Shown: positions 212-60,549, counted from the stretch's first letter. The stretch: 64,000 bases of DNA from Phycisphaera sp. (GCA_016125285.1 WGMA01000026.1:1-64000); one strand, 5' to 3'. The notes: generated from the letters alone by a model not told the origin. Program-made: numbers and translations.

Positions 212-1147
212 TCAACTTACTGCGGTCTCACTCACGTGGTCGATCACCAAGTCGATCTGCGAAACGGTCATATTCAAGGACGCCCCGATCTTGGCGAGCA
301 CGTCTCTCTCAGTCTCGTTGGCTGGCCCGTCGGCTGTTGCGACGATGAGCGAGGCCTTGATGAACAGCGTCTTGCCCTCATCGTCGAGATACGGCGAAAG
401 GTCGCCAAGTTGCGCGTGGATCTGCGTGTGGCGTTGCGCGCCCCCGCCCACGAAGGCGTCCGCCTCGGTACGCAATACCGCGGGGTCCGGGCTGGACTCG
501 GTGATCACTTTGACGAGCCTGGCGATACACTCGATCTCGACGTCGTCGACGACGCCATCCGCCGCAGCGGTCATCAGCATCACATTGCGCAGAGCGCGGT
601 GCATGTCGGCGCGGACGCGATCTTCGGAGCGGTACTTGGCGTTGGAGGTTTCCTCGGCGTTGTCGCGGCGAGCCCCCTTCTCGCCATGACCACGGTTGGG
701 GTTGTGCACGATGAACCAGACCACACCCATCACTAACCCGGCGACACCAGTAACGATCGCCGCGGTCCGGAACGGTGCCGAATGATGCCTCGAAAGGTTC
801 ATCGAGATGATGAAAAGGAACGTCGCCGCCAGCATCATCAAACCGAAGGTCCAACCAAACCGCCGCCACTTACTCTGCCGCACCATGTTCTTTTGGTAGT
901 GGCCACAATAGGGGCAGGCGACGGGATCTAGGGCATTGTCCAGCTTTTTTTTCAACGCCCTCTCGGCAGCGCGTGACGCACGATCCGAGGCGCCCTTGTT
1001 GTCTATGAACGCGGGGCTGAATGCCCGCCCCGAGGCCGTTCGCTCGACCTTGTAGTGGTAGACCTGCGCACACGACTCACATTCGGCCTGCTTCATCGCC
1101 GACCCCGTCAGCTTTGCCGTGTAGATCAGTCCTATCGGTATAGCCAC
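212..1147 (-). CDS. Membrane protein with two CxxC zinc-finger-like motifs and a TerB-like domain
   Basis: The 311-residue protein has CESC near residue 23 and CPYC near residue 80, two hydrophobic segments around residues 95-150, and a C-terminal TerB/DjlA-N-like helical region from about residue 185. That region carries two acidic repeats, TAAADGVVDDVE and VATADGPANETE, typical of TerB-family metal-binding loops. TerB-like domains occur in stress-response and membrane-associated proteins, but no specific function can be assigned. The start is a GTG at 1147 with a GGGGG tract about 9 nt upstream. An internal ATG at 1096 just before the first CxxC is an alternative. It has no close neighbour on its strand, and the IS3 end lies just beyond its stop. 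Confidence 0.75.
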   Translation of the reverse strand: MAIPIGLIYTAKLTGSAMKQAECESCAQVYHYKVERTASGRAFSPAFIDNKGASDRASRAAERALKKKLDNALDPVACPYCGHYQKNMVRQSKWRRFGWTFGLMMLAATFLFIISMNLSRHHSAPFRTAAIVTGVAGLVMGVVWFIVHNPNRGHGEKGARRDNAEETSNAKYRSEDRVRADMHRALRNVMLMTAAADGVVDDVEIECIARLVKVITESSPDPAVLRTEADAFVGGGAQRHTQIHAQLGDLSPYLDDEGKTLFIKASLIVATADGPANETERDVLAKIGASLNMTVSQIDLVIDHVSETAVS

Positions 1148-1315
1148 GTCGTTGACCCCCGTTCACTGAGACAGATGTGCGACTACCCAGTATTAGAGAT
1201 TTTCTGGACGCGCCAACGCCACGTCAAGTTATGCCATATGCCTTAGCACATGCTGTTCCGCGAACCCGAAACCTGCTTGGTTCAACTCAGGCATGCTTGT
1301 CGTACTCGGTGGAGT

Positions 1316-1331
1316 ATGTGCTCGAGCACAT
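1316..1331. promoter_or_regulatory. 16-bp perfect palindrome, candidate operator
   Basis: ATGTGCTCGAGCACAT is a perfect 16-bp palindrome about 110 nt upstream of the Ldh-type dehydrogenase start at 1442. It lies in the 294-bp gap between the divergent genes at 212-1147 and 1442-2539, so it could control either. The regulator is unknown. No other feature was seen in this gap. Confidence 0.4.
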
Positions 1332-1441
1332 GGCACCCCGTTGGCGGTCACGGCCCCACCTTTCCGCTGCGCCGCTTCCCGGGTATCCTGTCGCACCCGC
1401 GGGCACGCGGTTTCCAGGACGTTTTCCCAAGGATTACAGCG

Positions 1442-2539
1442 ATGAGTGATACGCAGTTCGTGATGCCGGTTGATGTACACAACAACCTTGTCGAGGCGGC
1501 GTACCGCAAGCGGGGTTACACCGACGACGAGGCGAAGCAGGCGTCGCGGTTCTGTGAACTGGCGGCGTGGCACGGCATCAAGACGCACAACGCGCTGAAG
1601 GCGTTGCACCTCGACGAGCTGTTCGGCTCGCAGGTCAAGCCGCAGGGCTGCGTGCCCGGCGCGACGATCGATAAGCGCGACACGAAGTTCGCCGCGTCGG
1701 AGCAGTGGAACGGCAACTTCAAGCTCGGCCAGGCGGTGGCGTTCGAGGCGATGGACACGTGTATGAAGCTCGCCGACAAGTACGGCGTGGGGCAGGTCAG
1801 CGTCGACAACGCGTTCCACTACCTGTGGGGCGGCGGCTACGTGATCGACGCGGCGAACAAGGGCTACATCGCCTACACCAACTGCACCTCGACGCTGGCG
1901 GAGGTCGTGCCGTTCGGCGGGAAGTTCCCGACGCTCGGCACGAACCCGCACTCGTGGGCGTTCCCGACGACCGACGCGATCGGCTTTCCGATCTGCATCG
2001 ACTGGGCGACGAGCACCGTGGCGATGGGCCGGGTGCAGCAGTTCAAGCGCGAGGGCAAGACGCTGCCGCCCGGGTCCGCGGTCGACGCCAACGGCAAGGA
2101 GACGACCGACCCGAATCAGGTCAAGGCGCTGCTGCCGTTCGGCGCGCACAAGGGCTACGGCCTGTCGCTCATCAACGAACTCTACGGCGGCCTGATCGGC
2201 GGGTCGCTGCCGACGCTCCGCGGCAAGCCCGCCACGAAGCCCGCCGGTGAGAAGACGGTGTCGAACTTCTACTTCCAGGTCATCCACCCCGACGCGATGA
2301 ACTGCGGCGGCTACGCGAAGGGCCGCACGCAGTCCGACAACCTCAAGGCGGTGATCGACGACATCCTCGGCCACGGCAACGAGTCGTGCCTGCTGCCGGG
2401 CCAGATCGAGGCCCGCTCCGCCGCGGCGTCGGCGCGTCACAACGGCCTGCTGTTCACCGCGAAGGAACTCGACGAGTTCAAGCACGTCGCCGACGAGGCG
2501 GGCATATCATTTGATACGTCCAGTTTTGCGGCCGTCTGA
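1442..2539 (+). CDS. Ldh_2-family (malate/L-lactate/sulfolactate-type) NAD(P)-dependent dehydrogenase
   Basis: The 365-residue protein matches the Ldh_2 family (malate/lactate/ureidoglycolate/sulfolactate dehydrogenases), cytosolic enzymes that oxidise a 2-hydroxy acid with NAD(P). Visible family features are VDNAFHYLWGGGYVIDAA (the region of the catalytic His), LGTNPHSWAFPT, and PFGAHKGYGLSLINELYGG. The start at ATG 1442 is chosen over an in-frame extension to 1250 because AAGGA stands 9 nt upstream and homology begins here; the extra residues look like noncoding sequence. The substrate cannot be read from sequence. An exported hydrolase follows after 14 nt and probably shares the transcript. 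An insertion relative to short family members (KTLPPGSAVDANGKETTDPNQ) is visible in the middle. Confidence 0.88.
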   Translation: MSDTQFVMPVDVHNNLVEAAYRKRGYTDDEAKQASRFCELAAWHGIKTHNALKALHLDELFGSQVKPQGCVPGATIDKRDTKFAASEQWNGNFKLGQAVAFEAMDTCMKLADKYGVGQVSVDNAFHYLWGGGYVIDAANKGYIAYTNCTSTLAEVVPFGGKFPTLGTNPHSWAFPTTDAIGFPICIDWATSTVAMGRVQQFKREGKTLPPGSAVDANGKETTDPNQVKALLPFGAHKGYGLSLINELYGGLIGGSLPTLRGKPATKPAGEKTVSNFYFQVIHPDAMNCGGYAKGRTQSDNLKAVIDDILGHGNESCLLPGQIEARSAAASARHNGLLFTAKELDEFKHVADEAGISFDTSSFAAV

Positions 2540-2553
2540 TACGGAGTCTGCCC

Positions 2554-3378
2554 ATGCGCTACGTCGCAGCCCTGTTTGTCGTGTTGTTCCTGTCCGCCGC
2601 GGCGATGGCCGGTGAGCCCTGGCCCGGCGCGGCGAAGGACTGGAAGGGATTCGAGCGGCACGACTTCAAGGTCGCTGATCGCGCGGCGTACGTCGTCGTG
2701 CCGAAGACACCGGCGGCGGGCAACCCGTGGTACTGGCGGACACGCTTCCCCGGCGTGGCGATCAACGACGATCTCGACCTGCTGAATCGCGGCTGGACCG
2801 TGGCGTACATCGACGTGTCCAACCTCTACGGCGCGCCCACGGCGGTCCAGGCGATGGACGCGTTCTACGACGAGATGACCGGTAAGTACGGCCTGTCGAC
2901 CAAACCCGTGCTCAAAGGCCTCAGCCGCGGCGGGCTGTTCATCTTCAACTACGCCGCGGCGCACCCGGACCGCGTCGCGGCGATCTACGGCGACGCGCCG
3001 GTGTGTGATTTCAAGAGCTGGCCCGGCGGTAAGGGGACCGGCAAGGGCTCGACCGGCGACTGGAAGCGGCTGATCGGCGTCTACGGTTTCAAGGACGAAG
3101 CCGAGGCGATCGCGTACACGCACAACCCGATCGACAACCTCGAGCCGATCGCCAAGGCGCACGTCCCCGTGCTGATCGTGGCTGGGGACAGCGACCACGT
3201 CGTGCCGTTCGTCGAAAACGGCGGCGTCGTGCAGCAGCGTATCGAGAAGCTCGGCGGCCACATCAAGGTCATCCTCAAGCCCGGCTGCGACCATCACCCG
3301 CACGGCCTGACCGACGCGGCGCCGATCGTCGAGTTCATCCTTGAGCAGGCCGACTACCCCGGCAAGGCCGCGAAGTAA
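2554..3378 (+). CDS. Exported alpha/beta-hydrolase
   Basis: The 274-residue protein begins with a signal peptide (MRYVAALFVVLFLSAAAMA, cleavage near residue 19). The mature part has an alpha/beta-hydrolase layout: a nucleophile elbow GLSRGG (Ser near residue 124), an acidic residue in VAGDSDHVVP, and a histidine-rich CDHHPHGL near the C-terminus that could supply the catalytic His. It is likely a periplasmic esterase or a related hydrolase. GGAG lies 6 nt before the ATG. It follows the dehydrogenase by 14 nt on the same strand, which suggests an operon. The physiological substrate is unknown. Confidence 0.82.
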   Translation: MRYVAALFVVLFLSAAAMAGEPWPGAAKDWKGFERHDFKVADRAAYVVVPKTPAAGNPWYWRTRFPGVAINDDLDLLNRGWTVAYIDVSNLYGAPTAVQAMDAFYDEMTGKYGLSTKPVLKGLSRGGLFIFNYAAAHPDRVAAIYGDAPVCDFKSWPGGKGTGKGSTGDWKRLIGVYGFKDEAEAIAYTHNPIDNLEPIAKAHVPVLIVAGDSDHVVPFVENGGVVQQRIEKLGGHIKVILKPGCDHHPHGLTDAAPIVEFILEQADYPGKAAK

Positions 3379-3403
3379 CCTCGGGCAAGGCATCACGAAG
3401 TCG

Positions 3404-3853
3404 TCAGGTGATCAGACCGCGCGACTTCAGCTCCGACGCGATCGCGTCCATGAGTGCGCGGTCGCGGTCGGCGTCGAACGGTGGGGCGGCGGCCCAGTCG
3501 TACATCCACACGGGCTTGGTGCGCAGGTCCTTCGGCTCGTCGGCGTAGCGCGGGAACACGTGGGCGTGCAGCGCGGGCTCGACGTTGCCGAGCATCTCGT
3601 AGTTCAGGTGCTCGGCGCCGGTGACCGCGAGCACCGCGTCGCCGACGACGGTCATTTCGTAGAGAAACGTGCGGCGGACGTCGGCGGTCATGTCGTTGAG
3701 GCCGCGCACGACGGGGTCGGGCAGCAGCAGGCAGTACCCGCGCAGGAACTGCACGTCGCCGAGCACGACGAACCCGGACGACACGCTGGCGATGAGCTTC
3801 GGATACGTCCCGGCGCGGCACGCGCGCACGCGTTGGTGGATGAGTGTGGGCAT
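3404..3853 (-). CDS. HIT-like (histidine triad superfamily) protein
   Basis: The 149-residue protein shows a HIT-fold pattern: an N-terminal strand region with VSSGFVVLGDVQFLRGYCLLLP, then HLNYEMLGNVEPALHAHVFPRY, corresponding to the catalytic HxHxHxx segment of nucleotide hydrolases and transferases. The first triad position is Ala rather than His (A-x-H-x-H), so activity may differ from standard HIT hydrolases. It converges with the upstream hydrolase gene (25 nt between stops). The start at ATG 3853 has no clear Shine-Dalgarno sequence. It is likely cytosolic, and the substrate is unknown. Confidence 0.72.
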   Translation of the reverse strand: MPTLIHQRVRACRAGTYPKLIASVSSGFVVLGDVQFLRGYCLLLPDPVVRGLNDMTADVRRTFLYEMTVVGDAVLAVTGAEHLNYEMLGNVEPALHAHVFPRYADEPKDLRTKPVWMYDWAAAPPFDADRDRALMDAIASELKSRGLIT

Positions 3854-3910
3854 GCGGGGATGATAGCAATTTGGTGCACTGGGCGGAGGTGAAGCGTGGC
3901 CGAGGGGTTA

Positions 3911-3944
3911 TCCCTCACCCTCGCCCTTTCCCGGAGGGAGAGGG
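3911..3944. repeat. CTCACCC/GGGAGAGG palindromic repeat (family A)
   Basis: TCCCTCACCC is followed by a 9-bp stem (3924-3932 with 3936-3944, loop GGA, one G-T pair). The same CTCACCC-stem-GGGAGAGG design recurs at 21340-21373 and twice at 52670-52798. It lies between the HIT gene and the end of the feo operon, where it could also act as a processing or termination hairpin. No T tract follows. Confidence 0.6.
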
Positions 3945-3994
3945 GAACGACGCGACGCGGCTGTCGACACGCCGCAGATCTGCCGCGCGACGTC

Positions 3995-4030
3995 ACATCA
4001 CCAAATCACCAAATCGCCACTTCACCAAAT
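3995..4030. repeat. Short tandem array (TCACCAAA-type units)
   Basis: Imperfect tandem copies of TCACCAAA run up to 4 nt before the stop codon of the small FeoB-associated gene (stop at 4035-4037, complementary strand). The unit here is 8 nt rather than 7, but placement directly 3' of a stop codon matches the other arrays in this window. Confidence 0.6.
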
Positions 4031-7016: not shown

Positions 7017-7727
7017 TCAGTGCGTCAGGGCGTAGCCGAGCAGGTTGACGTTGACCTGACGCGCGTTCAGCACCTCGTTGCCGCCGCAGCAGCAGCAGTT
7101 TCCGCCCGCGTTGGACGTGTCGTTCAGACCGTCCGGCGAGTACACGCAGACGATCCGCCCTTCGACGATCAGGCCCTCGAGGTGCGCCTTGACGCCCTTG
7201 TGCTTGGTCTTCAGTTCGTCGATGTCGTAAACCGTCCGAAAGATCGGGTGCGTCATCGGGATCTCCGTGAGCTTCACGTCGGGCAGCACCGCGGCGATCT
7301 CCCTGCGGAACGCACTCTGCCAGGGGTTCGAGCTGCAGCCCGGCGACGCGACGAGGAACCCGCCGTTGGTCAGGTACTGACGCAGGTTCTCCCGCTGCGG
7401 CTCGGTCAGCGTGAACGCGCCCTCGCCGCTCATCACCACGAACGGGAAGTTGAACAGCTCGCTGCTCGCCGCGTCGACCGCGGTGAACGCGTGCTCCGTG
7501 CGGATGTTCGTCATCTTCTCCGCGTCGGCGAGGAAGTGATGCGAGAAACACTTCGACGTCTGCCCGCGCCCGTAGACGAGGTTGCCACACCGGATCGCGC
7601 CCGGCGCGGCCGTCGCCTCGGACTTGCCCTCGTCACCCGTCGCCAGCGGCGCCAGTGCCGCGAGCGTCACGGCGAGTGCCGCCGCGAAGCTCCGGACATT
7701 TTTCATTTTGCATTTTTCATTTTGCAT
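7017..7727 (-). CDS. Exported DUF4159 protein, last gene of the first MoxR/vWA cluster
   Basis: The 236-residue protein has a signal peptide (FAAALAVTLAALAPLATG) and a DUF4159-type body (RTEHAFTAVDAASSELFNFPFVVMSGEGAFTLTEPQRENLRQYLTNGGFLVASPGCSSNPW), resembling a glutamine-amidotransferase-like fold. Proteins of this kind accompany MoxR/BatA clusters in planctomycetes; the biochemical role is unknown. AGGAGG stands 9 nt before ATG 7727, so the first residues MQNEKCKMKN are probably real. They are encoded by a tandem array at 7697-7738, so a repeat has become the basic n-region of the signal peptide. A run of four cysteines (NCCCCGG) near the C-terminus comes from a CAG/GCA-type microsatellite. 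It starts 18 nt after the stop of the preceding coiled-coil gene. Confidence 0.8.
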   Translation of the reverse strand: MQNEKCKMKNVRSFAAALAVTLAALAPLATGDEGKSEATAAPGAIRCGNLVYGRGQTSKCFSHHFLADAEKMTNIRTEHAFTAVDAASSELFNFPFVVMSGEGAFTLTEPQRENLRQYLTNGGFLVASPGCSSNPWQSAFRREIAAVLPDVKLTEIPMTHPIFRTVYDIDELKTKHKGVKAHLEGLIVEGRIVCVYSPDGLNDTSNAGGNCCCCGGNEVLNARQVNVNLLGYALTH

Positions 7728-7738
7728 TTTTCATTTCC
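7697..7738. repeat. Heptamer tandem array (CATTTTT/CATTTTG)
   Basis: Six 7-nt units, alternately CATTTTT and CATTTTG and ending in CATTTCC, run up to 6 nt from the stop codon of the upstream gene (7745-7747, complementary strand). The array overlaps the start of the DUF4159 gene and encodes its first residues. Confidence 0.85.
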
Positions 7739-7744
7739 TCCTCA

Positions 7745-10652: not shown

Positions 10653-12932
10653 TCACAGCCAGCCGCTCCATCGCCGGCCGATCCATTCTAGTCCCGCCCA
10701 CGCCAGCATCACGAACAAAATCCACGCCCGGTCCCACACGTACTCGGTGCGTGGCGGGGCGAGCGACGCGATCCGCTCCCGCGACAGCAACGCCGCGAGA
10801 TCGACGTCGTCGTCGACGCTAAAGCTCAACCCGCCGGTCTCCTCGGCGAGCATCTTCAGCTGCGCGGGGCGTGCGGCGGGGTCGAGGCGTTCGAGGTCGA
10901 GGTCGTACACGCTGAACCGCCGCGTGACCGGCTCGGCGTGCAGCGCGTCGGGCTCCAGCGTCACGGTCCACACGCCCACGGCGTCGGCGTCGAGCGTGCC
11001 GCGCTGACGGTTGGACTGCCCGCCGACCTGGTCGATCGGCACGGCGCGTGTTGTGCCGTCGGGCGCGGTCACGCGGACGACAGGCGCGTAGACCTGGTCC
11101 GGCGGGATCTTCGCCGCGACGTCGACGAGGATCGGGTCGCCGAGGCGGACCGACGTGCGGCTCAGCTTGATCGACACCTTCTGTCCCGGCGGCAGGTCGC
11201 CGCCGGCCACGAGCGAGCGGATCGTGTTCGACCAGAACGAGTCGAACACGCCGCGGTAACGCGCCATGTCCTGCGGCAGCAGCGACCACCGCCACAGCCC
11301 GTCACCGAGCACGGCGAACACGCGGCCGCGCCCCACGGGCATCGTCACGATCGCCGGCTGCGACGTCGACGCGTCGCCGCCACCACCGCCCGCGCCGTCC
11401 GCCACCGCGCGTCGCGACGCCCGCGCCAGCACCTGCGCCGCCGGCTTCACACGCGACACCTCGTACAGCGTCGACATCGCCGGCATCGCCCGCACCACGC
11501 GGTCCGACGCGTCCGGCACGCTGGCGAACGTGAAGCTCGGGCTCGACACGCCCGACGGCGCCAGCTCCAGCGGCACGTCACGCTGCACGCCGCCGCTGAA
11601 CGCCACCGGCTCGACGATCGCCATCGCCTCCGCCGCCGCGCGCCCCGCGTCGGTCGACACGTCATACGCCCGACCGCGCGCCAGCACGAGCTTGCCCCCG
11701 CCGTTCACGTACGTGTCGAACAGCCCGATCGCGTCAGGCGGCATCAGATGCTCGATGCCCCTGCCGAGCACGATCACGTCGTACCGCCGCATCTGCTCGA
11801 TCGTCACCGGCGGGGCGGGCTCCGTCGCCTCATCGACACGCGTGACCACGCCCTCGCGCTTCTTCGGCCCGAGCTGCGTGATGTGCGTCAGCTCGATCCG
11901 CGGGTCCGTCCGCAGCGACTGCGCGATGAACTTCGTGTCCCAGTACGGCTCGCCCTCCATCACCAGCACGCGCATCGATCGCTCGAACACGTCGACGAAC
12001 AGCGTGTGCTCGTTGTTGGCCGTCACCTTCTCACCGGCCACCGGCGCGACCGACACGTCGTACTCGTACACGCCGGGCGCGTCGTGCCGGATCGGCAGCG
12101 TCAGCGACGCCGTGCTGCGCCCCGCGAACTTCACCGCGTGCTCCGACACGTCGTCGCCGCGCCGCACGCGCACGTTGACCGTCGCGTCGTCGAGCCCCGC
12201 CTGCAGCAGCTTCACAACGATCTGCCCCTCCTCGTTGACCAGCAGATACTCCTGCCGCGGCTGGGCGATCACCGCGATGTCCGGCGGCGAGGTCGCGGTG
12301 CCCACCGCCACCGTGTGGATCGGCACGTGACGCTCCTTCGCGAGCTTGATTACGGGGCCGAGCGGCTGGCGGTCGGTGTCGTGCCCGTCGCTGATCACCA
12401 GCAGGCGCGACTCGGCGTCGAGCGTGGGCAGGTCCAGCAGCACGTCGTTGAGCGACCCGGCCAGGTGCGTCACCCCGCCCGTCGCCACCTCCGCCGCCGG
12501 CCGACGCAGCGCGTCGAGCGTCACCGTCCGCCGCGTGTCGTCGAACGCGCGGTAGCTCAGCTGATACTGCTCACCCAGCGCCGCGACCTGCTTGTCGCTG
12601 AGCCACCGACGCACGGCGTGCTCGAGGCGCGGCTCGCCCGCGCCGGCGTCGGTCGCCTGCATCGACGTCGACGTGTCGACGCACACCACCATCTGCGTCT
12701 TGCGGTTGTCGACCTGCGGCGCCAGCTCGCGGCTCGGTCCGAGCATGACCACGGCGATCGCGGTGATCAGGCCGAGCCGCATCGACGCGAACCACACGGC
12801 GCGGCGCGGCTGCGCGGTGAACGTGCGCACGCACACCAGCAGCGTCAGCGCCGCCAGCGTCGCCGCGCCGCCGTACACCCACAGCTGCGGCAGCAGCGGT
12901 CGCCACACCAGGCTCGCCAGCGCGTGCGTCAT
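10653..12932 (-). CDS. Membrane vWA-domain protein with a glutamine-amidotransferase-like domain
   Basis: The 759-residue protein has two N-terminal membrane helices (about residues 20-36 and 52-66), then a vWA domain with MIDAS motif DTSTS (residues 86-90). A beta-rich region is followed by a class I GATase-like segment (VLVMEGEPYWDTKFIAQSLR and YVNGGGKLVLARGRAY) and a final transmembrane helix (WILFVMLAWAGLEWIG). Such proteins are regular members of MoxR/BatA clusters and probably bind metal-dependent protein partners in the periplasm. The start at 12932 is chosen because its ATG overlaps the stop of the preceding gene (ATGA), implying coupled translation; ATG 12944 is possible. The GATase region shows no evident catalytic Cys-His pair, so it is likely a binding domain. 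Confidence 0.78.
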   Translation of the reverse strand: MTHALASLVWRPLLPQLWVYGGAATLAALTLLVCVRTFTAQPRRAVWFASMRLGLITAIAVVMLGPSRELAPQVDNRKTQMVVCVDTSTSMQATDAGAGEPRLEHAVRRWLSDKQVAALGEQYQLSYRAFDDTRRTVTLDALRRPAAEVATGGVTHLAGSLNDVLLDLPTLDAESRLLVISDGHDTDRQPLGPVIKLAKERHVPIHTVAVGTATSPPDIAVIAQPRQEYLLVNEEGQIVVKLLQAGLDDATVNVRVRRGDDVSEHAVKFAGRSTASLTLPIRHDAPGVYEYDVSVAPVAGEKVTANNEHTLFVDVFERSMRVLVMEGEPYWDTKFIAQSLRTDPRIELTHITQLGPKKREGVVTRVDEATEPAPPVTIEQMRRYDVIVLGRGIEHLMPPDAIGLFDTYVNGGGKLVLARGRAYDVSTDAGRAAAEAMAIVEPVAFSGGVQRDVPLELAPSGVSSPSFTFASVPDASDRVVRAMPAMSTLYEVSRVKPAAQVLARASRRAVADGAGGGGGDASTSQPAIVTMPVGRGRVFAVLGDGLWRWSLLPQDMARYRGVFDSFWSNTIRSLVAGGDLPPGQKVSIKLSRTSVRLGDPILVDVAAKIPPDQVYAPVVRVTAPDGTTRAVPIDQVGGQSNRQRGTLDADAVGVWTVTLEPDALHAEPVTRRFSVYDLDLERLDPAARPAQLKMLAEETGGLSFSVDDDVDLAALLSRERIASLAPPRTEYVWDRAWILFVMLAWAGLEWIGRRWSGWL

Positions 12933-15112
12933 CGGCGCCACCATCCGATCAGCGCCATCTCGACGCCCAGCAGCACGCACGCCGCGGCGATCAGCCAAGG
13001 CCACAGCGGCCGGCCCTCACGCTCGTCGCCGGTTGCCCGCCGTGTCGATCGGCCGTCGGCGCTGCCGGGGTCGATCGCGTTGCCCGCCACGTCCACCCGC
13101 ACGCCGATGCCGGTGATGCGGTCGTTGATGCTGTCGGTCGGCATCGCGCGCAGGTCGCTCTCACGCGCGTCGACGTTCGCCGCGCCGATCGCGACCGGCG
13201 TGGCCCCGCCATTGACGTACACGCGGTACAGGCCCGCCGCGGTGGGGCGGGGCAGCGTGAGCGTCACGCCCGTGTCGTCGGTCGACACCAGCGGCTCGAC
13301 GGGTTGGTCGTCGGGCCCGGTCGTGCGGAAGCGTCGCCCGGCCGACTCGTCGGGCAGCGCGGTGTACGGGATATCGATCCTCAGCGGGCGGCCCACCGCG
13401 GCGGTGCGACGCGTGTCGTTCGTCGTCCGCGCCGCGTCGACCAGCGCGTGCAGCAGCGCGACGAACACGCCGTGCTTGCCCAGGTCGCCGGTGCGCGGCG
13501 ACGGGCTGAAGTTGCACATGTACACCCGCCCGTCGCGGTAGCCCATCGTCGACAGCGCCGGCGTGCGCGCGGCGTCGGCCAGCCGCAGCAGCGTGTGCGC
13601 GTCGTCGTTCACCTCGCCCACGTCGTACACACGCCCGAGTCGCACACGCAGCAGCGCGTCCTCGCTCAACGCGTCGAACGACGCCAGCGGGGCGGTCGCC
13701 CACGCGGCGTCGCCGTCGAACCCGACGCCCGTCGAATCGTTGCCCGCGCTGCTCACGCCCAGCGGTTGCCACGGCAGCAGCCCGCCGTCCGCCGCGCGTC
13801 GCAGCGCCCCGGCGTTGAGCCCGACCGGCCCGTCGCCGCACAGCCAGATCAGCCCGCCGCCCGACGCCACGTAGTCACGCAGCGCCGTCACCGCCGTGTC
13901 GCTCAGCAGGCCCACGTCGCCGACGATCACCGCCTCGACGCCGCTCAGCGCCGTCGCCGTCACCGCGTCGCCGCGCAGGTGACGCACCTCCAGGTCGTTG
14001 TCCGCGCCGCGCCGCGGCGCCAGCGCCCGCTCGAGGAAGTAGCTCGCGCCGGTCGGCGCGGCCGGGTCGTCGTCACCGATCACCACCACCGGCACGCGCT
14101 CGACCACGTCGACGCCCAGCGACACGCGGTCGTCGACCGGCATCGTGTCCGGCGTGATCGCGAACGTCACGCCGTGAGCGCCCGCCGTCGCCAGCGCCGT
14201 CTCGAACGTCACCGCCTCCTGCGACCACGCCTGCATCGTCACCGGCCGCGACGCGACCTCACGCCCGTCGACCGCCAGCGACACCGTCACCGTCGCCGCC
14301 TTGTCCGCGTAGTTCCACACGCTGCACGACAGGCGCGCCGCGCGACCCGCGATCGGGTGCGCCGGGCTCACCGCCGGACGCGACAGCGCCACGTTGCCGG
14401 TCGCGCCGCCGGTCGGCGTCACCGGCTGCACCTCGACACGCGTCGCGTTGCCCGACCCGCCGAGCGTCGATTGATCGATCAGAACCTCCGCCCAGTTCGT
14501 CTGCTGCATGTCGGACAGCACGACGATCCGCCGCGCTCCCTTCGCCGACTCCAGCACGGACGCCGCCAGCGTGATCGCGCCCTGCAGGTCCGCGCGCTGC
14601 TGCGTCGGCTTCAGCGTGTCCAGCTCGCCGCGCAGCACGTCGAGGTTCGGCACGGGCCGCGTGAACGGCGCCGAGGGATTGGCGTCGGCGTACACGATCG
14701 CCGCGCTGTCGACGCCGGGCCGCAGCGCGTCGAGCCGGGCCTCCGCCGCGGCGCGCAGATGATGCGCCACGGTCACGCCGCCGGACTGCTGCGCCGACGA
14801 CGCGCTGACGTCCAGCACGAGCACCACCGCCTCGCCGCCCGACGTGTCGACGTCGCCGCGCGCCGCCGTCCACACCGGCCGCGCGAACGCCGCCGCGAGC
14901 AGCATCACCGCCGCGCACCGCAGCATCAGCAGCAGCCACTTCCGCAGCCGGAACAGCGTCGACTGCTGCGCCGTCGCCTCGCGCAGCAGCTGCAGCGACG
15001 GAAACATCACCCACCGCCGCGTCCGCCGATTCATCAGGTGCGCGATCACCGGCAACGACACGCCGAGCGCGCCGAGAATAAATGCGTCGAGGCCAGAAAG
15101 GGCAAGAATCAT
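12929..15112 (-). CDS. BatA-type protein (BatA N-terminal domain plus vWA)
   Basis: The 727-residue protein starts with the BatA N-terminal membrane module (two helices; SLPVIAHLMNRRTRRWVMFPSLQLL and LRKWLLLMLRCAAVMLLAAAFARPVW). A vWA domain with a MIDAS-like DVSAS (residues 101-105) follows, then a beta-rich region, a GATase-like segment (LRDYVASGGGLIWLCGDG) and a C-terminal helix. BatA-like proteins work with MoxR AAA ATPases in envelope-stress or assembly functions. Its ATG at 15112 overlaps the stop of the IVP gene (ATGA). Before the IVP element arrived it would have followed the DUF58 gene directly. Its stop overlaps the next gene. Confidence 0.82.
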   Translation of the reverse strand: MILALSGLDAFILGALGVSLPVIAHLMNRRTRRWVMFPSLQLLREATAQQSTLFRLRKWLLLMLRCAAVMLLAAAFARPVWTAARGDVDTSGGEAVVLVLDVSASSAQQSGGVTVAHHLRAAAEARLDALRPGVDSAAIVYADANPSAPFTRPVPNLDVLRGELDTLKPTQQRADLQGAITLAASVLESAKGARRIVVLSDMQQTNWAEVLIDQSTLGGSGNATRVEVQPVTPTGGATGNVALSRPAVSPAHPIAGRAARLSCSVWNYADKAATVTVSLAVDGREVASRPVTMQAWSQEAVTFETALATAGAHGVTFAITPDTMPVDDRVSLGVDVVERVPVVVIGDDDPAAPTGASYFLERALAPRRGADNDLEVRHLRGDAVTATALSGVEAVIVGDVGLLSDTAVTALRDYVASGGGLIWLCGDGPVGLNAGALRRAADGGLLPWQPLGVSSAGNDSTGVGFDGDAAWATAPLASFDALSEDALLRVRLGRVYDVGEVNDDAHTLLRLADAARTPALSTMGYRDGRVYMCNFSPSPRTGDLGKHGVFVALLHALVDAARTTNDTRRTAAVGRPLRIDIPYTALPDESAGRRFRTTGPDDQPVEPLVSTDDTGVTLTLPRPTAAGLYRVYVNGGATPVAIGAANVDARESDLRAMPTDSINDRITGIGVRVDVAGNAIDPGSADGRSTRRATGDEREGRPLWPWLIAAACVLLGVEMALIGWWRR

Positions 15113-15522
15113 GAGGAGCGAGGGGGTTTTTGAATTGTGGTTTTTGATTTTTGATTTGCCGCGCGTGCCCCGGGGCGCATGGCGGCTGTCTTTCGTGACG
15201 CGGTAATGATTGCCGTCAGTTGATCCGCTTCGTCCAGCAATTCGGTGACACGGTTAGGCTTGACCAAGCCACGCGCACTGATCAACTCAAGCCAATATAC
15301 GCTCTCGTCGGCTTCTTCGTCAGCGATCGCGAACTTCGCGATGAAGTCCTTGCGCGACCGTCCGCGACACGCCGCGCGATAATTGGCGCCGACAGAGCAA
15401 CCCGACCGGATCAGCTGCTTGCCGAGTTCGCGGCCAGTCGTTGTGTTCGGCAGCGCATCGACAACCTTCATCACACGCAGCGCAAAGTCTTTCGTCCGTC
15501 GCTTCATTTCTGCTTCCGTCAT
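15109..15522 (-). CDS. IVP / S23 four-helix bundle protein
   Basis: The 137-residue protein matches the 23S rRNA-intervening-sequence protein family (four-helix bundle): RTKDFALRVMKVVDALPNTTTGRELGKQLIRSGCSVGANYRAACRGRSRKDFIAKFAIADEEADESVYWLELI. Family members are usually about 115-125 residues. They occur inside 23S rRNA intervening sequences or free-standing, and their role is unresolved. The extra C-terminal tail (about 17 residues) is encoded by the left arm of the flanking array. It interrupts the DUF58-BatA junction of the cluster, is bracketed by complementary arms, and overlaps the BatA start by 4 nt, so it may have been fitted into the operon by selection. No reverse transcriptase or transposase is nearby. 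Confidence 0.85.
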   Translation of the reverse strand: MTEAEMKRRTKDFALRVMKVVDALPNTTTGRELGKQLIRSGCSVGANYRAACRGRSRKDFIAKFAIADEEADESVYWLELISARGLVKPNRVTELLDEADQLTAIITASRKTAAMRPGARAANQKSKTTIQKPPRSS

Positions 15523-15568
15523 TGCGGGCCCCCAGAAAGATCAAAAATCAAAACTCAAAATTCAAAAA
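15127..15568. mobile_element. Candidate IVP element: IVP gene within inverted heptamer arms
   Basis: Arms 15127-15155 and 15540-15568 are inverted repeats matching at 26 of 29 positions, built from TTTTTGA / TCAAAAA heptamers. Between them lies the IVP gene, with its 3' end running through the left arm. The right arm ends a few nt from the DUF58 stop codon (15576-15578). In RNA the arms would pair around the IVP reading frame, as rRNA intervening sequences do before RNase III excision. Mobility is inferred, since no target duplication is obvious. Confidence 0.5.
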
Positions 15569-15575
15569 TCCTCTC

Positions 15576-16520
15576 TTATGCAGTAGATGCCCTAGTAAAC
15601 AAATAGTGCTGCAGCGCGTCCGCGTAGTCGCGGTCGGTCGTCACCAGCTCGTAGTCGACGCCGCGGCCGCGGAACGCCGTGCGCCACGTGTCGAGGAAGT
15701 GGCGCACGCGGTCGTCGTAGCCGCGGCGGATGTCCGCGACATTCAGCGGCAGCTTCTCCAGCGACTCGCTGTCGATGAAGATCGCCTCGTCCATGTCCGG
15801 CAGCTTCATCTCCTGCTCGTGCATGACGTGGAACACCAGCGCGTCGCCGCCGCGGTGCGCGAACAGCGACAGCGCGTCGAGGATCGGGGCCGGGTCTTCG
15901 AACAGGTCGCTGATCACCACGAGCAGGCCCTTGCGGCCGACACGCGTGGCGACGCGGCGGATCGTCTCGGCGAGCTGCGCCCGGCCGCCGATCTTCGTCG
16001 ACTCCATCGACTTGAGGATGCCCGGCAGGTGCGTCAGCGCGCCGCGCGGCGGGTGGAACGTGTCCGTGCCCTCACGCGCGACCGCGAAGCTCACCTTGTC
16101 CTGCTGACGCAGCGTCAGGAACGCGATCGCCGCCGCGATCCGGCACGCGTGGTCGTACTTCGACACCGGCAGCTTCGTCGATTGGCGACCGCGCGGCCGC
16201 GGGGCGCGCGGGTCCTCCGCGCCGCTGAACGCCATCGACGCCGACCCGTCGACCACCAGGTGCACCGCCATGTCCGACTGGTGCTCGAACAGCTTGATGA
16301 ACAGCCGGTCGGTCCGGCCGAACACCTTCCAGTCGATGTCGCCCACCTCGTCGCCCGGCGTGTAGACGCGGTAGTCGTTGAACTCCACGCTGTGCCCGCG
16401 CTGCATCGACGCGTGCCGACCCGCGTAGAGACCCTCCACCGGACGCCGGCTCGAGAAGAACAGGTGACGCAGCCGACGCAGGTCGGCGGGTGAAAGGTAT
16501 TTGTGCGAAAGTCCGTTCAT
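15576..16520 (-). CDS. DUF58 protein of the first MoxR cluster
   Basis: The 314-residue protein shows the DUF58 hallmark YTPGDEVGDIDWKVFGRTDRLFIKLFE (about residues 53-79) followed by a vWA-like core with DGSAS (91-95) and LLVVISDLFED. DUF58 proteins accompany MoxR ATPases and are thought to be their partners or clients. The ATG at 16520 is chosen because residues added by a start at 16562 are translated array sequence. A 6-1-6 inverted repeat ACACAC-T-GTGTGT (16526-16538) lies immediately upstream and might affect ribosome access. No clear Shine-Dalgarno sequence is seen. It lies downstream of MoxR and upstream of the IVP/BatA pair. Confidence 0.85.
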   Translation of the reverse strand: MNGLSHKYLSPADLRRLRHLFFSSRRPVEGLYAGRHASMQRGHSVEFNDYRVYTPGDEVGDIDWKVFGRTDRLFIKLFEHQSDMAVHLVVDGSASMAFSGAEDPRAPRPRGRQSTKLPVSKYDHACRIAAAIAFLTLRQQDKVSFAVAREGTDTFHPPRGALTHLPGILKSMESTKIGGRAQLAETIRRVATRVGRKGLLVVISDLFEDPAPILDALSLFAHRGGDALVFHVMHEQEMKLPDMDEAIFIDSESLEKLPLNVADIRRGYDDRVRHFLDTWRTAFRGRGVDYELVTTDRDYADALQHYLFTRASTA

Positions 16521-16540: not shown

Positions 16541-16628
16541 ATGACCAATGCCCAAGCACCAATGACCAATGCCCATGTGCGTGCGACGTTGCGCTACATT
16601 GGTCATTGGGATTTGGTCATTGGTCATT
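16541..16628. repeat. Inverted pair of heptamer arrays (AATGACC / GGTCATT)
   Basis: The left arm (16541-16575) has imperfect AATGACC/AATGCCC/AAGCACC units, and the right arm (16596-16628) the complementary GGTCATT/GGGATTT units, with a loop of about 20 nt. It fills the MoxR-DUF58 junction and ends 5 nt from the MoxR stop codon (16634-16636, complementary strand). The AATGACC unit is shared with 39643-39750. Confidence 0.85.
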
Positions 16629-16633
16629 CTCCA

Positions 16634-39628: not shown

Positions 39629-39642
39629 GCCCCGCTGCGCGG

Positions 39643-39750
39643 AATGACCAATGACCAAGAACCAATGACCAATGTAGAACCACAATCCGATCACCACGCC
39701 ATGCCCGTTGATCTCGGGCATTGGACATTGGTGCTTGGTCATTGGTCATT
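39643..39750. repeat. Inverted pair of heptamer arrays in the DUF58-BatA junction
   Basis: The left array (39643-39677) has AATGACC units, the right array (39716-39750) GGTCATT/GGACATT/GGTGCTT units; the arms are complementary. An inner ATGCCCG/CGGGCAT stem adds to the hairpin. It lies 14 nt past the DUF58 stop and 28 nt before the BatA-type start, the same junction that carries the IVP element in the first cluster. Confidence 0.85.
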
Positions 39751-39778
39751 GTCGAACAGTGCTGACTGAGGAAGACAC

Positions 39779-54442: not shown

Positions 54443-56845
54443 ATGCACGCATCGGCACGGCGAGTGATGGCGACGGTGATGGTCCTCGCGGCCGCGTCCG
54501 TCGGCGTCGCACGGGGCGCGTCGGCCAGCGACGACGACCTGCACTTCTTCGAGCGCGAGGTCCGGCCGCTGCTCGCCGAGCGCTGCTACGAGTGCCACTC
54601 CACGCAATCCAAGAAGGTCAAGGGCGGCCTTTACCTCGACTCGCGCGACGGCTGGGTCGCCGGCGGCGACAGCGGACCGGCCATCGTGCCCGGCGACGTC
54701 AAGCAGTCGCTCGTCCTCTGCGTCGTGCGTCACGAGGTGCCGGACACCGAGATGCCGCCGAAGCAGAAGCTCACGCCCGAGCAGATCGACGTGCTCGAAC
54801 AGTGGGTCAAGCGCGGCGCGCCCGACCCGCGCAAGGGCGTCGTGCCGACCAGGGCCAAGCGGGTGATCGACATCGAGGCGGGCCGCGCGTTCTGGTCGTT
54901 CCGCCCGCTGCGGTCGCACGACACGCCCGCCGTGCGCGACGCCGCCTGGCCGCGCACCGACATCGACCGCTTCATCCTCGCGCGCCTCGAGGCCGCGGGC
55001 CTCCGCCCGGTCGCCGACGCCGACGCCCACACGCTGATCCGCCGCCTGCGTTACGACCTGACGGGCCTGCCGCCGGCGCCCGACGAGGCCGAGGCGTTCG
55101 TCGCCGCCGCGCGGTCCGACACGCAGGCCGCCGTCGAAGCCGCGGTCGATCGCCTGCTCGCCACGCCGGAGTTCGGCGAGCGATGGGGCCGGTACTGGCT
55201 CGACGTGGCGCGCTACGCCGACTCCAACGGCGGCGGCGTCAACTACACCTACGACAACGCCTGGCGGTACCGCGACTACGTCATCGCCGCGTTCAACGAC
55301 GACAAGCCCTACGACGCGTTCGTCCGCGAGCAGATCGCCGGCGACCTCATGCCGTCCGACACGCCGCGGCAGCGCGCCGACCGCGTCATCGCCACCGGCT
55401 TCCTGCTCGTCGGGCCCAAGCCGCTGGCCAAGTACGACAAGCAGGCGCTGAAGCTCGACGTCGTCGACGAACAGATCGACACGCTCGGGCGCACCTTCCT
55501 CGGCCTCACCCTCGGCTGCGCCCGCTGCCACGATCACAAGTTCGACCCCGTGTCGCAGGCCGACTACTACGCGATGGCCGGCGTGTTCATGAGCACCGTG
55601 TCCGTGCGACCGCCGAAGGGCGGGCCGATCAGCACGTGGAACAAGGTGTCGATCCCCGTCGACGAGAAGCACGAGCCGTGGTACGCCGCGCGACAGAAGC
55701 AGCTCGGCAAGGGCGAGGCGCTGGCCGTGCAGGACGCCGACAAGCCGCACGACGAGCACGTGCGCATCCGCGGCCAGAGCGCGACGCTCGGCGACGAGGT
55801 CCCGCGCGGGTTCCTGCGTGTGGCCACCCGCGGCGACGCGCCGACGATCCCCGCCGACACGTCCGGCCGCGCGCAGCTCGCCGTGTGGCTCACCGACGTC
55901 GACACCGGCGCCGGCGCGCTGTCCGCACGCGTGATGGTCAACCGCGTCTGGCACCACCTGCTCGGCAGCGGCATCGTGCCCACCGTCGACAACTTCGGCG
56001 AACGCGGCGAGCGCCCGTCGCACCCGCAGCTGCTCGACACCCTCGCCGCGCAGTTCGTCGACGACGGCTGGTCCGTCAAACACCTCGTCCGCCGCATCGC
56101 CACCAGCCGCGTCTACCGACTCGCCGCCGTCCCCGACGAGCCCGACGTCACCACGTCGGCCGATCCGCAATCCACAACCCGAAACCCGCAATCGGTCGAC
56201 CCCGACAACCGCCTCCGCTGGCGCGCCGAGGGCCGACGCCTCGACGTCGAGGCCATACGCGACACGATCCTCACGATCTCCGGCAGGCTCGACGAGCAAC
56301 GCGGCGGCCCGACGCTGACCTACGCCGGTCGCCTCAACGCCGAGGGCAACTACAAAAAACTCGACGTGCCCAACCCCATCTACCGCCGCGGCGTCTACCT
56401 GCCGATCCTCCGCGACGGCATGTCGATGATGGACTCGATGGACATGCTCGAAACCTTCGACTTCGCCGACCCGTCGATGGTCACCGGCGACCGCGCCTCG
56501 ACCACCGTGCCGACGCAGGCGCTGTACCTGATGAACAGCCCGTTCGTGATGAAGCACGCCGAGCTCGCCGCGACGCAGCTGCTGAAGCGCGACGGCGACG
56601 ACGCGCCACGCGTGCGCTGGTTCTTCGAGCGCGCCATGGGCCGACCCGCCACCGACCACGAGATCGCGCAGTCGCTGAAGCTGATCAATCACTTCACGAC
56701 CGTCGACCTCACGCGCGCCGCCGCCGCGACGCACAAGGCCGACAAGCCGGGCAACGACGACAAGCCCGCCGACGCCCGCACGCTCGCGTGGGCCGTGTTC
56801 TGCCAGTCGATCTTTTCGTGCAACGAGTTCCTGTTCCTCAACTGA
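54443..56845 (+). CDS. PSCyt1-DUF1549-DUF1553 protein B
   Basis: The 800-residue exported protein is a paralogue of 49677-52646: signal peptide (VMATVMVLAAASVGVARGASA), CYECH (Cys48, Cys51, His52), DUF1549 with [11 protein letters not shown], and DUF1553 (VMVNRVWHHLLGSGIVPTVDNFG). It lacks the beta-rich insert of protein A. A heptamer array at 56165-56192 adds PQSTTRNPQS just before VDPDNRLRWRAEGRRLD, at the edge of DUF1553. GAGG lies before ATG 54443; an in-frame start at 54374 would give a poor signal peptide. DUF1501 protein B follows after 9 nt. Confidence 0.88.
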   Translation: MHASARRVMATVMVLAAASVGVARGASASDDDLHFFEREVRPLLAERCYECHSTQSKKVKGGLYLDSRDGWVAGGDSGPAIVPGDVKQSLVLCVVRHEVPDTEMPPKQKLTPEQIDVLEQWVKRGAPDPRKGVVPTRAKRVIDIEAGRAFWSFRPLRSHDTPAVRDAAWPRTDIDRFILARLEAAGLRPVADADAHTLIRRLRYDLTGLPPAPDEAEAFVAAARSDTQAAVEAAVDRLLATPEFGERWGRYWLDVARYADSNGGGVNYTYDNAWRYRDYVIAAFNDDKPYDAFVREQIAGDLMPSDTPRQRADRVIATGFLLVGPKPLAKYDKQALKLDVVDEQIDTLGRTFLGLTLGCARCHDHKFDPVSQADYYAMAGVFMSTVSVRPPKGGPISTWNKVSIPVDEKHEPWYAARQKQLGKGEALAVQDADKPHDEHVRIRGQSATLGDEVPRGFLRVATRGDAPTIPADTSGRAQLAVWLTDVDTGAGALSARVMVNRVWHHLLGSGIVPTVDNFGERGERPSHPQLLDTLAAQFVDDGWSVKHLVRRIATSRVYRLAAVPDEPDVTTSADPQSTTRNPQSVDPDNRLRWRAEGRRLDVEAIRDTILTISGRLDEQRGGPTLTYAGRLNAEGNYKKLDVPNPIYRRGVYLPILRDGMSMMDSMDMLETFDFADPSMVTGDRASTTVPTQALYLMNSPFVMKHAELAATQLLKRDGDDAPRVRWFFERAMGRPATDHEIAQSLKLINHFTTVDLTRAAAATHKADKPGNDDKPADARTLAWAVFCQSIFSCNEFLFLN
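56165..56192. repeat. Heptamer array inside a coding sequence
   Basis: Four units, CCGCAAT, CCACAAC, CCGAAAC and CCGCAAT, lie in frame in the DUF1549/DUF1553 gene at 54443-56845. The array encodes PQSTTRNPQS, absent from the paralogue at the corresponding site. This is the only array of the type not next to a stop codon. Confidence 0.7.
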
Positions 56846-59645: not shown

Positions 59646-60416
59646 ATGCACGCACGCCAACGCCTCTCGCACACCCAACTCCTCCAGCTCAAGCGGTGGA
59701 ACACGCCCACGGTGTTCAACGGCTGGGAGCAGATCACGTCGCACGACTCGGCGCAGGTCGGCATCAACTTCGAACCCACCACCGACTTCATGCCGCAGAT
59801 GGGCCCGATGGTCGGCTACGCGGTGACCGTTGTCGTCGAGCCGTCCAACCCCCAGCACCCCAAGGACTTCCCCGACAACTGGATGGAGTTCTACCGGCAC
59901 GTGGCCAGTCAGCCGGACGTCCCGCTGATCATCGTGATGCAGGACCTCGACAAGCCCAACTTCCGCGGGTCGTGCTGGGGCGAGGTCAACGCGAACATCC
60001 AGCGGGCGCTGGGCGCGGTCGGCTGCATCGTCGACGGCTGCGTGCGCGATCTCGACGAGATGACCAACGCGGGCTTCAAGGCGCTGGCCAGCCGCATGGC
60101 CGTCGGCCACGCCCACGCCGTGCCGCTGCGGTGGGGCGAGCCCGTGGAGGTGTTCGGCCAGACCATCCACCCCGGCCAGCTCATCCACGCCGACAAGCAC
60201 GGATTCCTCGCCGTGCCGACCGAAGACGAGCCCGGCCTGCTCGACGCCGCGGTGTTCATGGACCGCAACGAGTGCGACACGCTGATCGCCTCCGCCCGCA
60301 GCGCCGCCGGCAAGACCAAGCAGCAGATCGCCGACGACCTGGCCAAGGCCGCCGCGGCGTTCGGCCGCAACGCGCAGCAGAAGTTCGGCAAGTCCGGCGA
60401 GTTTGGAAACGAATAG
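59646..60416 (+). CDS. RraA-family protein
   Basis: The 256-residue protein matches the RraA/HMG-aldolase-like family: SCWGEVNANIQRALGAVGCIVDGCVRDLDEM, VGHAHAVPLRWGEPVEVFGQTIHPGQLIHADKHGFLAVP. Members are class II aldolases or RNase E regulators; here, next to carbohydrate genes, an aldolase-type role is more likely. GGAAA lies before ATG 59646. No signal peptide is present, so it is cytosolic. It ends the operon, and a heptamer array starts 4 nt after its stop. Confidence 0.82.
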   Translation: MHARQRLSHTQLLQLKRWNTPTVFNGWEQITSHDSAQVGINFEPTTDFMPQMGPMVGYAVTVVVEPSNPQHPKDFPDNWMEFYRHVASQPDVPLIIVMQDLDKPNFRGSCWGEVNANIQRALGAVGCIVDGCVRDLDEMTNAGFKALASRMAVGHAHAVPLRWGEPVEVFGQTIHPGQLIHADKHGFLAVPTEDEPGLLDAAVFMDRNECDTLIASARSAAGKTKQQIADDLAKAAAAFGRNAQQKFGKSGEFGNE

Positions 60417-60420
60417 CGTC

Positions 60421-60443
60421 GATTTCGGATTTCGGATTTCGGA
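60421..60443. repeat. Heptamer array (GATTTCG)
   Basis: Three perfect GATTTCG units and a partial one begin 4 nt after the RraA stop codon (60414-60416). Confidence 0.8.
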
Positions 60444-60549
60444 ACGCGGAGCGCGCACGGAATCGCGCACGGTTTTGCGCGACGGAAAATCGGTCGTGTC
60501 GCGCGCACGCGGATGGGAGTCGCGAGCGGGTCCGGCGTGGCGCGAAACA

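Follow-up and report, generated by a model that had tools for sequence, protein, structure and literature searches.

Intervening sequences of 23S rRNA that carry an S23/IVP open reading frame are found in Coxiella, Leptospira and Azospirillum. The locus described here raises the question of what such a gene is doing in a protein-coding operon, between two arrays that are complementary to each other. It lies in a 64,000-nucleotide stretch of Phycisphaera sp. DNA (GCA_016125285.1, WGMA01000026.1:1-64000), referred to as the window, and all positions are counted from its first letter.

An IVP gene closed by heptamer arms in a MoxR/BatA operon

The operon runs on the minus strand in the order MoxR, DUF58, IVP, BatA, with MoxR, DUF58 and BatA identified by Pfam. 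Its features at the junction, with arms named in transcript sense, are as follows.

15576 to 16520, minus strand: DUF58 gene, upstream of the cassette (PF01882)
15540 to 15575, minus strand: 5′ arm, GAGAGGATTTTTGAATTTTGAGTTTTGATTTTTGAT, heptamer TTTTTGA/TTTTGAA
15529 to 15533, minus strand: GGGGG after the 5′ arm and ahead of the IVP start codon, present in each of the six IVP loci of the genome
15109 to 15522, minus strand: IVP gene (S23, four-helix-bundle), 137 aa (PF05635, TIGR02436)
15120 to 15155, minus strand: 3′ arm, ATCAAAAATCAAAAACCACAATTCAAAAACCCCCTC
12929 to 15112, minus strand: BatA / VWA gene, downstream of the cassette (PF07584, PF13519)

The original prediction of an IVP gene between DUF58 and BatA was borne out, as the product passes the curated cut-offs of both PF05635 (68.1 bits, cut-off 33.8) and TIGR02436 (93 bits, cut-off 24). 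It had also placed complementary arms at 15127-15155 and 15540-15568; these do pair at 26 of 29 positions, and the true arms are longer, at 36 nt each with 31 of 36 pairs (86% complementary) and a period of 7. The two arms occupy the DUF58-BatA gap: the 5′ arm opens at the base right after the DUF58 stop (TAA, 15578-15576), and the 3′ arm, which is read through by the final ~15 IVP codons, ends 7 nt short of the BatA ATG (15112). The anticipated overlap of the IVP TGA with the BatA ATG is present as a shared ATGA at 15112-15109. The GGGGG is possibly a ribosome-binding site.

Of 1050 positions tried in the window with a 300-nt pseudo-gene, none had flanks more complementary to each other than those of the IVP gene (23.5, against a 99th percentile of 17.3), and in the predicted RNA fold of the cassette transcript the arms form the closing stem (-189 kcal/mol, z -2.83). 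Terminal complementary arms thus close around the open reading frame as they do in a 23S rRNA intervening sequence, but by location the cassette is not one, since it sits between the DUF58 and BatA genes. An Rfam search of the window gave no match, and there is no rRNA in the window.

Arms that change together, and arms of the same kind in 23S rRNA

A PF05635 profile search found six IVP genes in the genome, each of them enclosed by 7-nt units in inverted arrays. Each locus has its own heptamer (GATGCTG, TTTTTGA, TTTTCCA, GGATTTC, TGCAAAA (mixed) and AATGACC) and pairs with itself: from one locus to the next the arms differ in sequence but stay complementary to each other. Whether other IVP genes of the genome have the same arms, a check proposed at the outset, is thus answered yes for complementary heptamer arms as such and no for the heptamer sequence, which differs by locus and gives no common IVP signature.

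Arms were scored by aligning the 5′ flank of each gene to the reverse complement of its 3′ flank, with partners swapped between loci as the control. In the order-level sample, 82 of 112 IVP loci (61 genomes) scored above the 99th percentile of swapped pairs; the median was 20 for own arms and 9 for swapped partners, and control positions elsewhere in these loci reached 15.5 in 3 of 326 cases. Other phyla gave 62 of 89 IVP loci above the 99th percentile, and a later sample from the phylum gave 21 of 28 loci at 15.5 or higher, versus 21 of 756 swapped pairs; only about 1-3% of swapped arm pairs score that high. About a quarter of IVP genes lack arms by this flank-pairing test. The best period in 150 armed loci was 7 in 116 and 8 in 30, and the median cassette length is 466 nt. 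The 5′ arm is G-rich and not strand-symmetric, and it starts a median of 4 nt from the upstream stop codon, counted from the first base of that codon.

Two further arrangements were observed. The members of one IVP subfamily (L032, L033, L035, L036 and L062) have a CTCCTGT-type array upstream, but the 320 nt downstream hold no array complementary to it; that partner may lie farther off or have been lost. Upstream of another IVP gene (L070, 2179-2418) is a near-perfect ATTTCAG-type heptamer array of 240 nt.

At orthologous junctions in different genomes the heptamers are often wholly different, yet each locus pairs with itself, with a mean pairing score of 24.0 for own arms and 8.3 across loci. 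Change in the arms is concerted or compensatory, at the level of RNA or DNA. Where related IVPs occupy unrelated sites, their arm heptamers tend to match strand for strand (rho 0.22), with no such tendency for the opposite strand (-0.03), which fits a cassette that carries its own arms.

The same anatomy occurs in ribosomal RNA, and in this respect it supports the original prediction of an mRNA counterpart of an rRNA intervening sequence. On a plasmid of Azospirillum lipoferum 4B (L123, the one locus in rRNA among those tested for 23S sequence), an IVP gene lies within a complete rRNA operon (LSU model match 780-3978) and is closed by GAGGACG/GATGACA heptamers that extend a 23S helix (z -9.0), judged by its sequence to be helix 45. 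The Coxiella intervening sequence has three tandem GACAGAT heptamers at an RNase III processing site, and 23S rRNA intervening sequences are a class cut by RNase III (PMC4990558). The arms in Azospirillum are of the same kind as those described above, so the rRNA intervening sequence and the mRNA cassette share one architecture, a long stem within a transcribed host RNA whose loop holds the IVP gene, with tandem heptamers in the stem region as in Azospirillum and Coxiella. Unlike the 23S elements, the cassette of the window has an mRNA operon junction as its host, belongs to a kind present in many copies per genome, and is known here from sequence.

Empty and filled sites, and hairpins without a gene

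Cyanobacterial plasmids provide sites with and without the cassette. In Nostoc, two junctions of one operon are filled in some plasmid records and empty in others. The A-B site reads GGTTCTAGGTTATG when empty; when filled, GGTTCTA is followed by an arm, the IVP gene, the second arm and then CTAGTTATG. The B-C site reads GAGGTAATGGGATTTG when empty, and elsewhere it holds another IVP cassette, whose arms are of the AAAAGGG type. The best pair, at ~97% identity, sets an empty site (L245, AAAAAGTAATTAACAAATAAATATG) against a filled one (L118, AAAAAGTAAT-cassette-TAATTAACAAATAAATATG), with a target repeat of 4-5 bp. Trichormus/Scytonema are filled where Aulosira/Fremyella are empty, with GTAAT/TAAT repeated at both ends, and a plasmid of Picosynechococcus PCC 7003 (L116, 1983-2339) has a cassette between cas10 and cmr3 of a type III-B CRISPR operon that is absent in PCC 7002. 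These sites show that the arms enter together with the gene, as a single unit, accompanied by a target repeat of 4-5 bp.

Three other loci are of note for their state. An IVP gene of Nostoc sp. N6 (L237, 1435-2150) is cut by a ~190-nt gene-free heptamer hairpin and is uncut in L119 and L236; L249 is a decayed remnant of an IVP copy; and in Nostoc sp. C057 (L242, 1333-1533) the plasmid has a small unrelated ORF at the A-B junction, where its sister plasmids have IVP cassettes.

Insertion with a flanking repeat was seen in these cyanobacterial relatives. At the window, where relatives have diverged too far to be aligned base by base, the comparison is one of presence and absence. The closest DUF58 orthologues, six genes from families f1 and f6 with 53-59% identity, are each followed directly by BatA, and the junction is empty. 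The cassette of the window is thus lineage-specific, and the IVP gene is not conserved at this place. Together with the cyanobacterial sites, this supports the earlier proposal of a mobile IVP cassette. In two of the six, DUF58 and BatA overlap by 4 bases; the junction was probably translationally coupled before insertion, and the cassette may preserve that coupling through its own stop overlapping the BatA start. Two further genomes (G025, G060) have other IVP cassettes with other heptamers in an upstream context in common with the window locus, next to a paralogous DUF58 in G025.

A coding-strand caller trained on annotated records, which is right for ~75% of 210-nt windows, placed IVP genes sense to co-directional neighbours in 93 cases and antisense in 14. 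This bias may mean no more than that the gene lacks a promoter, or that the insertions which are tolerated form a biased set. For pairs of IVP genes dN/dS is about 0.1-0.2 (in several of them dS is high or saturated), which indicates that the protein matters.

The cassette has no transposase or reverse transcriptase of its own, and we found no mobilising enzyme. Dependence on reverse transcriptase was rejected as a general requirement, as five genomes (G004, G005, G046, G058, G060) hold 5-9 IVP genes each and have no RVT_1; the sole RVT_1 match of the Phycisphaera genome is on contig C12, which has no IVP gene. Y1 transposases are common, but absent from one genome with 3 IVP genes (G013). The IVP is homologous to Avd, the four-helix bundle of diversity-generating retroelements (L007 against NF033474, 31.5 bits, under the cut-off of 80), but unlike in Avd systems no reverse transcriptase, template repeat or variable repeat adjoins the cassette, and a diversity-generating retroelement was rejected on these grounds. 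With MITEs and REP-BIME the cassette shares dispersed hairpins with inverted arms, a short target repeat and the lack of its own transposase; the empty and filled sites with target repeat in cyanobacterial relatives are likewise MITE-like. It differs from them in that its arms are tandem heptamers that vary from copy to copy and that some copies bear a gene under selection.

The arm heptamers also occur without an IVP gene, and three such hairpins, which have no assigned strand, lie in the window.

16541 to 16630: gene-free AATGACC heptamer hairpin in the MoxR-DUF58 gap, heptamer as in the IVP cassette on contig C73
27725 to 27827: gene-free heptamer hairpin after a stop codon, heptamers as in the IVP cassette on contig C22 (L005)
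39642 to 39755: gene-free AATGACC hairpin

With the first of these in the same operon as the cassette, the operon carries two heptamer elements, one with an IVP and one without. The arms of the window cassette are themselves tandem 7-nt units of the STRR type, and other arm heptamers of the genome form dispersed arrays. Counting overlapping matches within one array separately, GGATTTC has 152 sites in the genome (0 in the backward control), GATGCTG 266 (0) and AATGACC 12 (1). Many of the dispersed sites are hairpins with loops of ~20-190 nt. In a Dyella genome, the heptamer of the IVP arms (GGGAATC/A) is found at 46 sites, against 0 in the control, and GGGAATC was reported from Xanthomonas as an orphan heptamer (PMC4692102). 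Lone heptamer or octamer arrays with no obvious partner arm were also seen in the window at 3990-4028, 7694-7739, 56161-56191 and 60415-60457, and long GATGCTG arrays stand in the first 140 bases of contigs C7 and C46 of this genome (G000), which suggests that such arrays break the assembly.

It had been suggested that these other arrays might be gene-free forms of the cassette. The heptamers do recur genome-wide in gene-free hairpins, but we detected no sequence in common between their loops and IVP cassettes; an origin by internal deletion of the cassette was rejected because the loops do not match, and the hairpins are at most candidate derivatives of it. Cyanobacterial STRR, the tRNA-Leu intron P6b classes, Xanthomonas GGGAATC and the Geobacter four-heptamer elements are likewise 7-nt units in hairpins of intergenic regions or structural RNAs, often with complementary arms (PMC4476775, PMC4692102, PMC2700814); unlike the cassette, they were described with no tie to IVP genes or to a mobile element. 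Our literature search, which had most subscription papers and preprints outside its reach, returned no paper tying IVP genes in general to heptamer arms.

A probable mobile stem-loop cassette and rival explanations

We consider it likely that the locus is a mobile stem-loop cassette of ~470 bp, an IVP gene between complementary arrays of 7-nt (sometimes 8-nt) repeats, and the mRNA counterpart of the rRNA intervening sequence. Direct support comes from the anatomy, the complementarity kept as heptamers change, the insertion as a unit in relatives, the lineage-specific presence at DUF58-BatA and selection on the protein. Over the few hundred bacterial loci compared, this kind of cassette is widespread, lodging between co-transcribed genes. 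We propose that it inserts whole into a small gap between two operon genes, usually sense to transcription, through the action of a transposition enzyme, and becomes part of the polycistronic transcript. There the arrays would pair in the cell to give a stem of ~30 bp or more with the IVP gene in the loop. As 23S rRNA IVP insertions have the same anatomy, the cassette most likely behaves in mRNA as its counterparts do in rRNA: the IVP RNA would be separated or set free when RNase III cuts the stem, and the IVP protein may bind its own RNA. Translation would continue in the operon, passing into BatA by translational coupling at the overlap of IVP stop and BatA start.

The covariation of the arms could instead come from DNA-level processes, such as slippage or templated correction of quasi-palindromes. 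In its strict form, in which slippage of heptamers and copying off a folded-back template at the replication fork explain the arms entirely and RNA has no role, we find this explanation unlikely. It would fit the excess of heptameric repeats in bacteria, which have been linked to polymerase slippage (PMC4692102), and the highly variable array length; it does not account for arrays that bracket IVP genes far more than other places, for the sense bias of the IVP, for the strand asymmetry of the G-rich 5′ arm, or for the same arms in an rRNA element of a class cut by RNase III.

It is less probable again that the hairpins are an independent repeat family, like REP or STRR, whose loops IVP genes entered secondarily, as they do the loops of 23S helices. 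The many gene-free hairpins with the same heptamers, and loops that have nothing in common with IVP cassettes, are what that history predicts. Against it, at the best-resolved sites (about 91-97% identity) empty means no hairpin and filled means arms plus gene, and related IVPs at unrelated sites share same-strand heptamers. Least probable to us is a domesticated regulatory part, in which the stem sets the ratio of upstream to downstream cistron in each operon and the IVP regulates it. IVP genes do recur at the same junctions across families of the order with complementarity conserved, and the protein is under purifying selection; but the junction of the window is empty in six relatives, decayed (L249) and interrupted (L237) copies occur, and the host operons (MoxR/BatA, cas genes, plasmid transfer genes) are functionally unrelated.

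The mobile cassette, our preferred reading, connects three things that have been described separately: rRNA IVP insertions, the large family of orphan 'four helix bundle protein' genes and the abundant intergenic heptameric repeats of bacteria. A broader extension, which we offer as a doubtful possibility, is that IVP genes define bacteria-wide mobile RNA stem-loop cassettes on heptamer arms, with the 23S rRNA intervening sequence as the best-known special case, and that the surplus of heptameric repeats (cyanobacterial STRR, tRNA-Leu P6b, Xanthomonas GGGAATC and others) consists largely of relatives that lack the gene and are mobilised in trans, with IVP perhaps serving as the RNA-binding factor. 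If the preferred reading is right, operons of many phyla would bear insertions like those of rRNA in their mRNAs, and the long-open function of IVP would be testable in cultured strains with empty and filled pairs, for example Picosynechococcus PCC 7003 and PCC 7002.
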